A stretch of 33,666 bases of DNA from a virus: the IMG/VR virus record IMGVR_UViG_3300009156_000061, positions 1 to 33,666 of that record. One strand, 5' to 3'. A model generated the notes under the pieces. The model was not told the DNA's origin, ran no database searches, and saw nothing but the letters and a program-made list of their open reading frames with translations. Positions within the stretch are counted from its first letter, which is position 1; each line of letters starts with the position of its first letter. A program made the translations under genes and the position numbers. Below, one piece after another: positions 1,708-31,590 of this stretch.

Positions 1708-4700
1708 TCACTGAGTGGGCGCGGTCATCGCCCTCTGAATTTCCTCTGTGGTCCCGGTCGGCACTCGCGTCTGCTGCGCTCGCAATTCCTCCCGTTTTCC
1801 CGTCCGCAAATCCGCGTCTATCGCGCCCTTGATTTGGATGGTCGCCATCCGTGCTGCGTCCGTGGCTTTGGCGGCACCAATCTGTGCCGCCGTCCCGAAC
1901 TCTGTTTCGGTCGCAAAGAACGTCGCCAGGTCGCGCATGATCGGGGCACCGGCGATGAACGCATTCACAAACGCGGCTCGATCCGCGATATTACCCGTGA
2001 GGCCAAATGCATTGTTGGTGATCCATTTGTGGGTTGGGCCAAATTTGTACAATTCCGCGAGGAGGAAGCTTTTCAGGATCCCGCCCATCTGTCCCACCAT
2101 GCCGGTCGGGCTGAGTAGTTCCTTCTCAATGGTGGCAATCTGCATTCCCGCACTGATCCCGCCTGCCGCTTTGAAAGCGCCCTCCACGATATCCGCTGGC
2201 CGCGTTATGTCATGAATGCCTCTGAGCCGACGCATGGTCTCGTCCCCAACCAGGGCGTGAATACGACTGGAGAGCATGTCCCCGCTGGGATCATCCTGCA
2301 GGAAACCGCGCAGCGCGGCGGAATGAAGCCGCTCTTTGCCTTCCGGCCCACCCATTGATTCATGAAAGATCCGCAAGATGGTGCGTTGCCGCATCTCGTC
2401 AATGATGTCCGGCCGGTCGCTGAGTAAACTCATGACCTCCCGCACGTCCCGCACCTCACTGGTTGGACTGAAGATCAGATTTTCTACGAGCTTGCTCGGC
2501 TCGTCGCGGAACTCACCTTTGCGGAGCTGATCCAGGTGGGTATTACGCAACCGGATTTCCCTGGCTTCCTGCAAAGTGGCGAGGTCTTCCAGCGATTCCT
2601 TGGTGAGCGAACCCTGATCGATCCGCGCCGCCAGTTCCACCGCATCCACATTGCGTAAGAGTTTTCCTTTTTGGGCAGCTCCACCGGCTTGGGCAATCGC
2701 AAGCAACTGCTCGGTTTGCTGACCGAACACGTCATCGACAATATCGGGCTGCTTTTCAAAAGCGTTCGTCAGGCGCTTCGCGAACCGATCCATGTTAATG
2801 GCGTTGTTCCCGAGAGTGCGACCGATCAGCGAATCAGCGTAGGAACGGCGGAGGTGATCCATCTCGGGGCTTTGCGCTCCGAAGAAATCCCGGTAGGTCG
2901 ACCAGACTCCCTGATCGCGGCTGGCCCGGTCGACAATCTCGTAGAAATTCAAAGCACCCGCCTGATTCTGCTCCTTCAAAATCGGCAGGATGTCCAGGTT
3001 CTTGAACCGCTGCATTCCGTTGCGTTTGAAATCCTGCGCGGTTTGCCATGCCTGGCGGAGTGCGCCCGTATCATCAAGTGTTTCGAGTCCCCTCTCAATT
3101 TGCAGAGTGAGCGAGGCGTAGAGTTTACCCAACCGTGCCTCTGGAATGCCGCCCAGTGTAAACCCATCCATGGCCCTCCCGATGTCAGCCCGGGCTTCAA
3201 TCAAATCGGCGTAGCCGGTCCTGCCGGGGACGGAAAGGTTATTCAGAATGGCGGTCGTGTTCGGGTTGAGTACACCCGCAATCGGCCGGGTTTGTGTTTG
3301 GAAAACTTCGATTGGATTGCCGTAAGTGGGATCGTAGCCGGGCACTCCCACTTCCCTTTCAATGGAGGCCATGCTGGCGAGTGCTTCCTGTGCATCCCTA
3401 GCCAGTGGTGTCGTGTCGATATTCCTTCCCTGCCCAGAAATGCGCGGATCGTCCGTGACCACCCTCGCGAGTGCTACGGCCCGGTCGTTAAATTCATTCC
3501 ACATCCTCTCTGTTGCCTGGAACAGGCGTTGCCCCACCGAGGTGGTGCTGACGTTGGATGGAATCCGGGTGGCAGCAGCAACCCCGTTTTTAATTTCCTG
3601 ATCGGCCTGCTCGAGAACATCCCGTGTCCCGCGATCAACCACATGATCCAACGCGTCAAACTGCGTGCCAATATGGGACATGGCACGCTGCCCGACGATG
3701 TCGGCGGGTGGCACGGCGCTGGGATCACGACCGAGGGTGATGCGAATCATGTTGTCCACGGCGGCGCGTTGTTCAGCGGCGCGTTCGGCAAACACACCCG
3801 CGCTGCCGGGTTTAATCGTGCCGTAGGCTTCAGTGCGTCCAAGGAATGGACTGCCGGTAGCTTGCGCCGGGGTAAAATCGTAAATGACACCTTCCCGTCG
3901 CCACATCTCTGCTGCCGCCTCCGCATCCATTTGGATCGGACCCCGCTGGCTTAATGGGGTCACAAACCGACTGGCGAGCTTGCCCATGGGAGCGTCCACT
4001 GCCGTACCAAAGAGGAAGTCAGATAAGGTGTTGTAGCCTTGTTCCTTCAGGACAGTTGGCGCATTAACGTCCTGCAAATTACCTGTTGCTCTGAGTCCTG
4101 TCCTCCCTATCAGCTGCTCCGCCGTATTGACGACACCACTAGCCAGGGCACCTCGCGCATTCGCCGCGATCACGCCGCTCCGACTGTTCAAAAACCACTT
4201 GGCGATACTGGAAGCGTTTTTCAGTGCAGTTGGATTTCTGCCGAGGGTAGCGACTGCACCCGCCAGCATGGACGGAGCATTAGCCAGAACAAAAGCAAAG
4301 TCGCCTGGATCCATCCCGACCGGGTTAGCCAGCACGTCGCGTTCTTCCCCGGTGTTGGGATCTGTGATGGTCAGGACGGGATCACCAATCGAGTTGTAGC
4401 GAATCTCTTTGATATTGGGATTGGCGCGCTTAATGAAATAGTCCAGTTCGGCGCGATTCAGCGTGAACTGCTCCACCATCCGAGTGGTGAAGTTTTCCGC
4501 CCGGCGATCTGTCCCGGTGATGTCAAAAGGAACACCAGGACGCTCCCCCAGCATCCGGCGGGTGTCTGGACTCTCTGTATCCAGGAACGGACGGTGCAGC
4601 ATCGTCATCGCGGCGGAGGCCGCGCTACCGATTGGGCGCAGCATACTGTCCCCGAATGTCTCTCGCTGTTCCGGTGGTGTGGTCTGAGGAGTGGCTTGCG

Positions 4701-4941
4701 GAGTAGTAGTGGTGGTGGTGGGCGGTTCATCCTCGACCGGGACTGGCGGCGCATTGAGTTTGGCGAGGAACGCCTCCCGCGCAGTCATTGGCGCTTCCGG
4801 TGTCGGCGCTGGCACGTCCGGTCTCGGAACAGTGGCACCTACGCTGGTGTCCGGTGGCGGAGTCGGGATCTGTGGCGTGGGCACATTCTCTCCCACGGCC
4901 AATCGGCTCAGGAACTCGTCTTTAGTGGCAATGTCCGCCAT
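1708..4941 (-). CDS. Very large putative internal virion / DNA-ejection protein
   Basis: This 1077-aa protein is the last gene of the late region. I do not recognise a catalytic domain. The N-terminus holds two similar short motifs (residues 7-17 TKDEFLSRLAV; about 52-63 MTAREAFLAKLNA) separated by Pro/Thr-rich linkers, including a run of six Thr encoded by a triplet microsatellite near 4707-4722. The rest is mostly helical with a few Gly/Ala-rich hydrophobic stretches, as in ejection proteins of podoviruses. Size, position after three other Gln/Gly-rich virion-like proteins, and the end-of-cluster location all fit the largest internal virion protein. The start follows the upstream stop as TAATTTATG. 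A lytic transglycosylase domain, common in such proteins, was not seen. Confidence 0.6.
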   Translation of the reverse strand: MADIATKDEFLSRLAVGENVPTPQIPTPPPDTSVGATVPRPDVPAPTPEAPMTAREAFLAKLNAPPVPVEDEPPTTTTTTPQATPQTTPPEQRETFGDSMLRPIGSAASAAMTMLHRPFLDTESPDTRRMLGERPGVPFDITGTDRRAENFTTRMVEQFTLNRAELDYFIKRANPNIKEIRYNSIGDPVLTITDPNTGEERDVLANPVGMDPGDFAFVLANAPSMLAGAVATLGRNPTALKNASSIAKWFLNSRSGVIAANARGALASGVVNTAEQLIGRTGLRATGNLQDVNAPTVLKEQGYNTLSDFLFGTAVDAPMGKLASRFVTPLSQRGPIQMDAEAAAEMWRREGVIYDFTPAQATGSPFLGRTEAYGTIKPGSAGVFAERAAEQRAAVDNMIRITLGRDPSAVPPADIVGQRAMSHIGTQFDALDHVVDRGTRDVLEQADQEIKNGVAAATRIPSNVSTTSVGQRLFQATERMWNEFNDRAVALARVVTDDPRISGQGRNIDTTPLARDAQEALASMASIEREVGVPGYDPTYGNPIEVFQTQTRPIAGVLNPNTTAILNNLSVPGRTGYADLIEARADIGRAMDGFTLGGIPEARLGKLYASLTLQIERGLETLDDTGALRQAWQTAQDFKRNGMQRFKNLDILPILKEQNQAGALNFYEIVDRASRDQGVWSTYRDFFGAQSPEMDHLRRSYADSLIGRTLGNNAINMDRFAKRLTNAFEKQPDIVDDVFGQQTEQLLAIAQAGGAAQKGKLLRNVDAVELAARIDQGSLTKESLEDLATLQEAREIRLRNTHLDQLRKGEFRDEPSKLVENLIFSPTSEVRDVREVMSLLSDRPDIIDEMRQRTILRIFHESMGGPEGKERLHSAALRGFLQDDPSGDMLSSRIHALVGDETMRRLRGIHDITRPADIVEGAFKAAGGISAGMQIATIEKELLSPTGMVGQMGGILKSFLLAELYKFGPTHKWITNNAFGLTGNIADRAAFVNAFIAGAPIMRDLATFFATETEFGTAAQIGAAKATDAARMATIQIKGAIDADLRTGKREELRAQQTRVPTGTTEEIQRAMTAPTQ

Positions 4942-29108: not shown

Positions 29109-29152
29109 TCAATTTCGGTAGCGGCTGTTTTTGCTGTTTCCATGCCGCGTAT

Positions 29153-29183
29153 GCTCCCCGCAGGCCAACAGCGGCAGGGGAGC
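29153..29183 (+). other. Inverted repeat between terminase and the Fn3-like gene
   Basis: GCTCCCC (29153-29159) pairs with GGGGAGC (29177-29183), extendable by one T-A pair, with a 17-nt loop. It sits in the 100-nt gap between the terminase stop and the next start, with no T-tract after it. It may attenuate the downstream gene or stabilise the mRNA. Confidence 0.3.
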
Positions 29184-29208
29184 AGCCGAACAACAACACA
29201 GAATAACT

Positions 29209-29778
29209 ATGACTAATTCCTTATTCCTGGCTTTGACCCTCCTGATGACCGGCAACGGGGTTATTCTCACATGGAAAAAACATCCCGATGCCGCTTATTA
29301 CAACCTCTACGTGATCAATACCAATCTCCGCCTGACCAACGTGGTGCGGGTCGCCACCAACTCCTACACCATGACCAATCTGGTCAAGGGCAACACCTAC
29401 TCCGTCCAGATCGCCGTCGTGAATCATCTCGGGCTGGATTCCGAACTCAGCCTACCAACCACCTTCATGTTCGGAATCCTCTCACCACCCACTGTCCATA
29501 CCCATTTCCTCATCAACACACCCTCGTCATGGACCTTCACCACCTCCTGGCACGCCGCTCCCGGCGCTTCCGGCTATTACCTGAAGATCGCCCAAAACGG
29601 ACGACCACTGACCAACATTTTCACCACCAACCTCTCCGCCCGGGTCGTCGTGCCAAAAGCCGATCGCACCAATCTCCACCTTCAGTCCACTAATGCGTTC
29701 GGCGCGTCCCGCTCCGTGCCGGTCGCCACTTATGTCCGCCCGACCCGACCCGATCAGGTCTCCCTCATCCTTCCATGA
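29209..29778 (+). CDS. Fibronectin type III-like protein
   Basis: Start taken at ATG 29209 (189 aa); the longer open frame uses TTG and adds Cys/Arg-rich residues. A short hydrophobic N-terminus (MTNSLFLALTLLMTGNG) could be a weak signal peptide. Two beta-sandwich domains follow. In the first, VILTWKKHPDAAYYNLYV, NSYTMTNLVKGNTYSVQIAVVN and LDSELS carry the Trp, Tyr and Leu positions of fibronectin type III. The second is a similar copy with FTTSWHAAPGASGYYLKIAQ. Such proteins decorate phage virions or the host surface. It ends convergently against a minus-strand region. No clear ribosome site. Confidence 0.65.
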   Translation: MTNSLFLALTLLMTGNGVILTWKKHPDAAYYNLYVINTNLRLTNVVRVATNSYTMTNLVKGNTYSVQIAVVNHLGLDSELSLPTTFMFGILSPPTVHTHFLINTPSSWTFTTSWHAAPGASGYYLKIAQNGRPLTNIFTTNLSARVVVPKADRTNLHLQSTNAFGASRSVPVATYVRPTRPDQVSLILP

Positions 29779-29935: not shown

Positions 29936-29960
29936 GGTGGAGGAGTATTACTCCTCCACC
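29936..29960 (-). terminator. Perfect 25-nt inverted repeat at the end of the array
   Basis: Twelve-base arms (GGTGGAGGAGTA and its exact complement) flank a single central base; as RNA this gives an 11-bp stem with a 3-nt loop. The last array pentamer (GCAAG on the minus strand) ends at 29961, so the array abuts the hairpin with no gap. On the minus strand it is followed by TATCCTTCC, not a U-run. It may be a terminator, a 3'-end stabiliser or a processing site for the array RNA. Confidence 0.6.
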
Positions 29961-30625
29961 CTTGCTTTGCCATTGCGCTGCTCAGCAAGGCTGAACTCAG
30001 CTTTGCCATCGCTGCGCTGTGGGCAGCTCTGTAGCGCCGTTGCTTTGCATAGCACGGATGGGCATTGCCATGCCATGCCGCTGCTACGCCGTGCTTGGCG
30101 TCGCCATGCCGTTGCCTGGCTCTGCTTTGCCACGCAGTGCCATTGCTGTGCTTAACTGTGCTCTGCCTGGCCTTTGCGATGCCGCACGTCGCATGGCGAT
30201 GCCGTCGCTGTTCGGTGCGTGGCGTCACTTGGCTCAGCCATTACTTTGCTCTGCTGTGCCTGGCCATGCCGTCGCATCGCACTACTCTGCGATACATTGC
30301 CGTTGCGATGCTGTGCCGTGCGTTGCCGTCGCTTCGCTCTACAATGCGTGACATGGCTTTGCCGTTGCTGCGCACTACTGGGCGCTGCTTCGCCGTCGCC
30401 TTGCACTGCATAGCCTTGCCGTTGCTTCGCTCTGCGTGACGTCGCTTTGCCATTGCTGTGCTCTGCAGCTCTCTGCTTCGCATCGCCATTGCACTGCTGC
30501 GCCAGGCTAGGCCGTACTATGCCATTGCTGTGCTCCGCCGGGACACGCGCCGCCGGGCCGCGCCTCGCCACTGCTGCGCGGAACATCGCCCTACTGCGCC
30601 GTTGCTATGAGTCGCATGGCGATGC
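29961..30625 (-). repeat. GCNNN pentamer-phased array with periodic GCRRYG hexamers
   Basis: Read on the minus strand, the direction of the upstream gene, the 665 nt split without remainder into pentamers GCNNN and 20 hexamers. The hexamers are GCAACG (6), GCAATG (5), GCGACG (4), and one each of GCAGTG, GTAATG, GCAAAG, GCAGCG and GCGATG. Each hexamer is immediately followed by GC. Plus-strand cores (GCC plus the rest) start at 29969, 30005, 30036, 30077, 30108, 30139, 30170, 30201, 30237, 30268, 30299, 30325, 30361, 30392, 30418, 30449, 30485, 30521, 30567 and 30598. Intervals are 26 (2), 31 (10), 36 (5), 41 (1) and 46 (1). By hand about 84 of 103 pentamers have exact GC, and most of the rest have GT. 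Intervals are mostly not multiples of three, so it is not protein coding. The transcript strand is poor in U. The array begins at the upstream stop codon and ends at a hairpin. Confidence 0.93.
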
Positions 30626-30626
30626 T

Positions 30627-31274
30627 TTACGCCTCCACTAAGCGACGTTCTGCTTCGCTATCGCCGTACTGCTTCACGATCTCCTCCCATGTAAACCGGC
30701 CCTTGCCGGAATTCCGCCACTGGCCGAGTCCACGGAATTTTCCGTAGTCCAGAAATAATCTCACGTAGGGGACGAGTTCCTTGGCAAGGATCTGAATGTC
30801 GAACACGATACTGGTGCCTGCGGGAACGGTTTCACTCCGACAGAGCGACACTCTCGGTCCCTGCGCGGTATCCGCCTTCAGCGGTCGTTCACAGATTCCT
30901 AGCAATACTCGGTCCATGACCCCAGTCGCGATGATGAACGGAATGAATCGAGGTGTGACAAAGATGCACCCGTCGATTTTGGTTTTATAGGCGGTGAGCT
31001 TTTCCAGGTTGCCGCGATACTCCTTGTCCATCCGATTTAAACTGCCGCACGCATCCTTGAAGAACCCCTTGATCTGGTAATCGTAGATGCCGGGCAGTTC
31101 TTTTTCCCGGTGGAAAATTGTGGTCCCAGCCTCCTCCCGGTGTTCCGCGTTGTCGAGTTCATCATGCTGGGGAGTGCCACTCGGGTGCTTGCTCGCAATG
31201 AAATCTTGGAAGATATCTTTGTTCGCCGCTTTGGTCCCGAGGACTTCCTCAGTGAATGTTATTTTGATTTTCAT
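30627..31274 (-). CDS. RAMP-like (Cas7/Csm3/Cmr4-fold) protein, stand-alone
   Basis: A 215-aa protein. Three features resemble the RAMP fold of CRISPR backbone proteins: YQIKGFFKDAC (residues 66-76), like the xxKGxxR/K helix start; SETVPAGTSIVFDIQIL (147-163), like the E-x-V/I-P-x-G-T strand of Csm3/Cmr4; and RGLGQWRNSGKGRF (181-194), like the Gly-rich RNA-binding loop. RPLKADTAQGPRVSL (130-144) also looks conserved. I recall similar proteins in other phages annotated as hypothetical. It is the last gene of a compact operon, starting as ATGA over the upstream stop. The GCNNN array begins at its stop codon. No cas10, cas6, cas1, cas2 or CRISPR is present. RNA binding is inferred; catalytic activity is not indicated. 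Confidence 0.7.
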   Translation of the reverse strand: MKIKITFTEEVLGTKAANKDIFQDFIASKHPSGTPQHDELDNAEHREEAGTTIFHREKELPGIYDYQIKGFFKDACGSLNRMDKEYRGNLEKLTAYKTKIDGCIFVTPRFIPFIIATGVMDRVLLGICERPLKADTAQGPRVSLCRSETVPAGTSIVFDIQILAKELVPYVRLFLDYGKFRGLGQWRNSGKGRFTWEEIVKQYGDSEAERRLVEA

Positions 31275-31384
31275 ATTTGCTCCTCCTCTTCGGGAGGTGG
31301 TTTGGTTTTATCTCTGGAAGTGCGGCTCGGCAGTAACAGCAGCACAACGGAAGTTATGAGGAGTGAGATGATCAGAACGTTCAT
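31271..31384 (-). CDS. Small single-span membrane protein (37 aa)
   Basis: From ATG 31384: MNVLIISLLITSVVLLLLPS forms one transmembrane helix, followed by a charged tail (RTSRDKTKPPPEEEEQI). This start overlaps the previous stop (ATGA), and its own stop overlaps the next start (ATGA), so it is embedded in the operon. The predicted topology is N-out or N-in single span; the function is unknown. A longer frame to 31453 adds non-plausible residues. Confidence 0.65.
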   Translation of the reverse strand: MNVLIISLLITSVVLLLLPSRTSRDKTKPPPEEEEQI

Positions 31385-31590
31385 ACCATCTCCACCTCTT
31401 CCAGTTTCCACTTCTTCTTCACACAGTACTCCCGCACCCGGCTCAATCCCCAATGCTTCATATAGGTAAGGATGGGTGCCGTCCGAGTCACCACCCCGCT
31501 GATCTCACCATCATTGGTGGGCATCGGCAGTGTGTCCGCCTCAAACCCAGCCGTGAAATGAGCACCTCGGATCTGGTAAAGCCGGGTCAT
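31381..31590 (-). CDS. Small phage protein of unknown function (69 aa)
   Basis: It contains GEISGVVTRTAPILTYMKHWGLSRVREYCVKKKWKLEEV. This resembles a widespread short phage protein (strand ending in x-APIxxWM, then a helix with an xxVxxWxxxKG end); I recall no function for it. ATGA overlaps on both sides show translational coupling with its neighbours. Confidence 0.7.
   Translation of the reverse strand: MTRLYQIRGAHFTAGFEADTLPMPTNDGEISGVVTRTAPILTYMKHWGLSRVREYCVKKKWKLEEVEMV

Follow-up and report, generated by a model that had tools for sequence, protein, structure and literature searches.

The locus and its features

The window, i.e., the whole stretch of 33,666 nucleotides analysed here (IMG/VR record IMGVR_UViG_3300009156_000061), carries terminase and integrase genes and is the DNA of a temperate tailed phage. 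The features at issue lie side by side on its minus strand:

29936 to 29960, minus strand: strong hairpin (stem of 11 bp) at the 3′ terminus of the array
29961 to 30625, minus strand: phased array, putatively RNA, of 130 units (109 GYNNN pentamers and 21 GCRRYG-type hexamers), read from 30625 to 29961
30627 to 31274, minus strand: gene for a Vipr-like/Cas7-like RAMP protein of 215 aa (~24 kDa), a single domain with the G-rich loop GLGQWRNSGKGRF
31271 to 31453, minus strand: candidate small upstream ORF, which overlaps the RAMP start codon and has one apparent hydrophobic stretch

A ribosome-binding site, GAGGAGGAG, can be read in the sequence immediately upstream of the RAMP gene, to which the small ORF may be translationally coupled. 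The 5′ boundary of the array is the stop codon of the RAMP gene and its 3′ boundary is the hairpin, which is not followed by a U-run on the minus strand and may be a terminator, a processing site or a tail; a strong tail fold (−15 kcal/mol or lower) occurs in 24 of 112 arrays. Convergent with the array, at 29131–29778 on the plus strand, lies a gene for a fibronectin type III protein, whose PHROG matches are tail-fibre-like. No Cas10, Cas5, Cas6 or other cas genes were recognised near the RAMP gene.

RAMP proteins thread RNA in class 1 CRISPR complexes. The protein of the window has no match in Pfam, PHROGs or PADLOC. An AlphaFold2 model (pLDDT 84) was searched with Foldseek, where all of the top 50 matches were type III/VII Cas7-group chains (best E 1.7e-7), and VIA assigned it a Csm3/Cas7 fold (Z 13.5, 165 residues, rmsd 3.4). 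Among solved chains, type VII Cas7 and Csm4 are the closest in sequence, with a PDB profile match to type VII Cas7 at E 9.4e-5, and 35 relatives align well around the G-rich loop. One viral relative is already labelled "Cas system-associated RAMP superfamily protein" in BFVD. Thus, the predicted fold together with the sequence matches to the Cas7 group identifies the window protein as a RAMP protein.

Grammar and extent of the array

A sequence-only reading of the window had described 29961–30625 as a non-coding array with a strict 5-nt phase and a 6-nt reset unit. This array is real: the minus-strand parse contains zero out-of-phase steps and no 4- or 7-nt step. Units start with GC in 108 cases, with GT in 15 and with AC in one. 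The stretch contains 122 GC dinucleotides. The mean step of the parse is 5.16 nt, precisely the value given by that reading, and its count of 15 A and 5 U on the transcript strand in 30361–30420 is also correct. Its rule that all hexamer intervals are 1 modulo 5 fails under the strict GCRRYG consensus (18 hexamers), which leaves two double intervals of 67 and 62 nt, but holds when the variant hexamers GTAATG and GCAAAG, which occupy these two intervals, are counted.

The periodicity is confined to the array. GC autocorrelation peaks at lags of 5, 10, 26 and 31 nt (0.55, 0.46, 0.54 and 0.61, respectively), whereas it is flat at ~0.07–0.08 in the remaining phage sequence. The local scan score of the array is 105.8, compared with 10.9 for the best third-order Markov shuffle of the fetched loci. 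A two-unit hidden Markov model (HMM) was trained by EM with "G at position 1" as its sole seed. Its units converged on G(.93)-C(.70; A.16, T.12)-R-N-N for the pentamer and on G-C-A/G-A/G-notG-G for the hexamer, and it gave a score above 10 to none of the 38 blocks elsewhere in the window.

The hexamers are separated by 4–6 pentamers, i.e., they recur about every 30 nt, with a mean spacing of 4.84 pentamers and an sd of 1.69, vs. 5.32 under random placement. The units that flank the hexamers are more conserved, while those at the centre of each interval are nearly free. This combination of regular hexamers, conserved edges and free centres allows the array to be read as a series of ~30-nt modules. 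Special folding of the RNA is not supported, as the array folds about as well as its own shuffles do (z −1.58 for the whole array, which is slightly better, and +0.76 for the first 300 nt). No near-identical spaced repeats resembling CRISPR repeats were found in the array, and an Rfam search of the window and seven array loci returned nothing except one tRNA.

Pairing of the array with the RAMP gene

A scan of 2.9 million viral contigs for the phased pattern gave 80 stretches, mostly long arrays, nearly all of which adjoin a gene that encodes a protein of ~200 residues and in most cases shares their strand. In the opposite direction, a search with the RAMP protein alone found relatives encoded at 396 loci in viral contigs of IMG/VR, of which 80 were fetched. 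With an array called at LLR > 20 inside 1.5 kb of the gene, 92 of 94 non-redundant loci have one beside the RAMP gene, vs. 0 of 94 shuffles; among the non-redundant relatives picked by protein alone, the array is on the gene strand in 60 of 62. These 94 loci also served as the training set of the HMM, so an independent test matters: held-out loci, i.e., two bacterial genomes and four human-gut phages drawn from another collection, have the array on the gene strand in six of six cases, and 0 of 616 control blocks from bacterial genomes scored above 20. Gene and array are therefore near-obligately paired, and the idea of a phased array survived the refutation set for it beforehand, namely that no other genome would carry one. 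The array and the adjacent RAMP gene together make up a two-part system, which the sequence-only reading had missed.

Downstream arrays that start right at the stop codon, co-oriented with the gene, number ~50; 19 of the 94 loci have the array only upstream and 13 have it on both sides. Array lengths range from 665 to 1800 nt. Translations of the arrays aside, no neighbouring gene family occurs in more than 12 of the 94 loci, i.e., no conserved accessory gene was found. Two short records, L005 (4654 bp) and L080 (9786 bp), contain arrays with neither RAMP family (see below for the second) recognised nearby.

Cellular cases are rare. Plasmids yielded no homologue, and a scan of 84,980 bacterial species gave 70 pattern matches, with a long array and the gene together in just four, all of them gut Actinobacteria or Clostridia MAGs. 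One bacterial locus (L114) has a weak array without a RAMP gene, and the remaining matches look like chance in high-GC DNA. The cellular loci L106, L107, L113, L146, L236 and L237, from assemblies of Coriobacteria relatives and a Clostridia MAG, are probably prophage contigs.

Selection on the RNA strand

Changes at pentamer starts are dominated by GA and GT (2407 together) over AC, TC and CC (446). Changes of the second base thus far outnumber those of the first base, which is not expected from recognition of duplex DNA. Substitutions between close phage pairs amount to 3.1% at P1 (G), 7.7% at P2 (C) and 10–11% at P3–P5 (NNN), and to 2.7% at the hexamer positions H1/H2 (G, C), so that G is the most constrained base and NNN drift ~3.5 times faster. 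Indels in the arrays often comprise whole units (5, 10, 15, 21, 31 and 36 nt). Selection therefore acts on the RNA strand, with phase kept while the NNN bases drift; both had been anticipated from the letters of the window, as selection on nucleic acid with an informative minus strand and as conservation of phase in homologous arrays. No DNA-level similarity to phages was found, as expected from the drift of NNN.

A sister family and the VIPR system

An RNA-guided system called VIPR (Viral Interference Programmable Repeat) was first described in a preprint of 27 April 2026 (PMC13142463). According to its main text, VIPR combines a phage RAMP protein, Vipr, with an accessory gene and with RNAs in which GGY and NN alternate (GGY/NN repeats). 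The NN bases jointly read DNA non-contiguously, skipping one base per step; the targets are mostly competing phages and satellites. VIPR is further characterised by a structured 3′ tail on every vrRNA and by proteins of a Vipr clade distinct from Cas5/6/7. The same text refers to seven types, to "a related consensus" and to "staggered arrays with overlapping vrRNAs", and presents the accessory gene vap as typical of VIPR loci, without stating that it is universal (PMC13142463). The array of the window had earlier been said to belong to no repeat class that could be named. It is indeed not a CRISPR, having no near-identical repeats, but it can now be named, since the phased pentamer RNA of the preprint is of the same kind (PMC13142463).

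Two arrays without a window-type RAMP gene, on the long contigs L042 and L034, led to a second RAMP family, phrog_4652, which these contigs carry in its place. Downstream of the phrog_4652 gene the grammar is one of GCNNG pentamers with a 4-nt reset, GCNG. This grammar occurs on the sense strand in 28 of 28 loci (L245–L273; LLR 38–465) and is essentially missing from the antisense strands and from 246 control blocks. The PDB relative of phrog_4652 is the "SUSP1 Vipr protein" (36pp, E 1.1e-36). Cultured phages with this family include Felix O1-like Ounavirinae and phages of Mycobacterium, Gordonia and Pseudomonas, in which short phased tracts adjoin the gene, as separate ~65-nt arrays on either side of the operon. 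The gene is followed by phrog_5926 in L274, L275, L277, L278, L279 and L283 and by phrog_15946 in L281 and L282; this partner is probably the vap gene of the VIPR preprint and possibly a winged-helix DNA-binding protein.

Some cultured loci show further features. In L275, L276, L277 and L283 (Gordonia phages MakoManhole and Trine; Mycobacterium phages LittleE and prophiBWHA-1), minihelices that resemble the T-arm of tRNA, with a GTTCGANTC loop, are interspersed among short phased arrays. There are 11 of these in the four loci vs. 12 in 3.1 Mb of control strands; their stems are 6–7 bp long and differ in sequence, and they may be sites at which RNase P or Z processes the RNA. Phage VpaE1 (L274) has about five phased GGTNN tracts beside gp091/gp092, at 2960–3400 and 4560–4800, several of which are preceded by a long-stem hairpin with AAGAGTCTTNTAAGAGG, forming a repeated module. 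Hypothetical genes are annotated over phased arrays at 2950–3336 in L281 (Donkeykong gp48) and at 4081–4350 in L282 (Pipp gp43), and are probably not real genes.

Proposed function and alternatives

Taken together, we consider it likely that the window carries a divergent VIPR-type locus with gapped guides on RAMP-coated array RNA. The gene at 31274–30627 would make a small RAMP protein, and the array behind it would be co-transcribed, giving an RNA without unusual folding. Each 5-nt unit of this RNA would be covered by one RAMP subunit, which would hold the fixed G and the following pyrimidine and leave the variable bases facing outward. The GCRRYG hexamers would split the array into ~20 modules of ~30 nt or, alternatively, show where staggered guides that overlap one another begin. 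As the VIPR precedent suggests, the variable bases may jointly pair, with gaps, with the DNA of rival phages or satellites and silence it. A search for gapped targets with 12 rule variants, in a small pool made up of the fetched loci (4.35 Mb with both strands counted), gave no convincing excess over reversed controls; this result says little, given the size of the pool.

A narrower form of this proposal, which we put forward only tentatively, is that the locus represents a VIPR branch with a different code, i.e., three free bases per unit, hexamers and their neighbours (GCAAYG-GCAAA) as semi-conserved handles, and ~20 guides of ~30 nt. If so, the decoding would differ from the rule of skipping one nucleotide, and a single phage would hold a guide library in one continuous array, without an accessory protein.

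Alternatively, the array may be a scaffold rather than a guide, which the RAMP protein coats to form a filament or a storage or regulatory particle. The variable bases would then carry no message, and their drift would also avoid recombination between exact repeats. The fast divergence of NNN, the shuffle-like folding of the window array and the absence of gapped targets from the small pool are consistent with a scaffold, as are the filaments of type IV-B Csf2, which assemble on heterogeneous non-CRISPR RNA (PMC7937560). However, neither GCRRYG hexamers at ~30-nt spacing nor a division into ~20 modules, conserved at their edges and free at their centres, is needed in a pure scaffold, and the related SUSP1 system is reported, in the main text of the preprint, to read DNA via its variable bases (PMC13142463). 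We therefore regard the scaffold as unlikely.

Self-control, in which the RAMP protein would bind the array as a 3′ untranslated site and so stabilise or switch off the mRNA that encodes it, would explain why arrays in the downstream cases begin at the stop codon and share the strand of the gene. It is improbable given the loci with the array only upstream or on both sides, array lengths that far exceed the needs of a binding site, and the separate arrays that flank the operon on both sides in the cultured relatives of the sister family.

It is more improbable still that the protein and RNA act as a counter-CRISPR decoy, mimicking type III subunits and jamming the CRISPR complexes of the host. 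The Csm3-like fold of the protein fits such a role, and RNA anti-CRISPRs exist (PMC10651486), but the array contains no sequence like a CRISPR repeat and has a 5-nt phase, whereas every sixth nucleotide is flipped in class 1 crRNAs (PMC11127173). Finally, an element acting as DNA, in which GC steps spaced by half a helical turn (5.2 bp) would serve bending or the binding of a protein to the duplex, matches the mean step of 5.16–5.17, near half of 10.4 bp, but is the least credible of these readings and was rejected by the strong strand asymmetry of an array co-oriented with its gene and by the correlation of successive run lengths (+0.17, against the negative value expected from helical phase-locking), while the sister family resets chiefly with 4-nt units.

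The VIPR-type reading, if correct, places a large phage family (396 IMG/VR loci from one seed) beside a new RNA-guided system, and such a system may predate CRISPR. The phased-pentamer logic comprises at least two grammars, GYNNN reset by 6-nt units and GCNNG reset by 4-nt units, which belong to two RAMP families, and since each protein family is tied to an RNA grammar, the reading rule becomes testable by comparison. With their length, the arrays also offer a large natural set of candidate guides in each phage, from which the targets of these systems might be found.

Comparison with known systems

The window protein shares its RRM core, G-rich loop and overall fold with the Cas7 proteins of type III and type VII CRISPR systems (Csm3 and type VII Cas7). 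In contrast to these systems, the window has no CRISPR array and no recognised cas neighbours, and its RNA has a period of 5 nt rather than 6 nt; CRISPR-Cas type III was rejected for want of a near-identical repeat array and of a multi-subunit cas operon. Type IV-B Csf2 is likewise a Cas7-like protein without a CRISPR array (PMC7937560). However, its bound RNA is heterogeneous and unphased, and several Csf subunits take part, in which the window differs.

There is also a close resemblance to VIPR type II (SUSP1; 36pp), as described in the main text of the preprint (PMC13142463). Both have a small phage RAMP protein with a G-rich loop, an array beside the gene, and tandem non-coding pentamers with a fixed G and pyrimidine, a hypervariable remainder and a conserved phase. 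In the broad sense of VIPR, the locus thus has the small single-RRM RAMP protein encoded by a phage or provirus, as well as the flanking tandem pentamers, although the latter (GYNNN) agree only in the sense of the "related consensus". The exact GGY/NN repeats of type II, 9–16 per RNA on separate ~100-nt RNAs, are not found. The unit of the window leaves about three bases free rather than two, is reset by GCRRYG hexamers and is repeated ~130 times in one continuous array, whereas type II has separate ~100-nt RNAs of 9–16 repeats and a tail (PMC13142463, main text); the window family also has no recurrent accessory gene. The window protein is too divergent from SUSP1 Vipr for direct profile recognition: SUSP1 Vipr is not among the PDB profile matches of its family at E up to 10, and the profiles of the window family and the SUSP1 type meet solely at the G-rich loop (hhalign E 6.5e-4, probability 27%). 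These differences in unit, reset, length, accessory gene and protein lead us to file the locus as a variant rather than as a member of VIPR type II. The "staggered arrays" of VIPR (fig. S18, as cited in the main text of PMC13142463) possibly have the same long, continuous, phased architecture as the array of the window.
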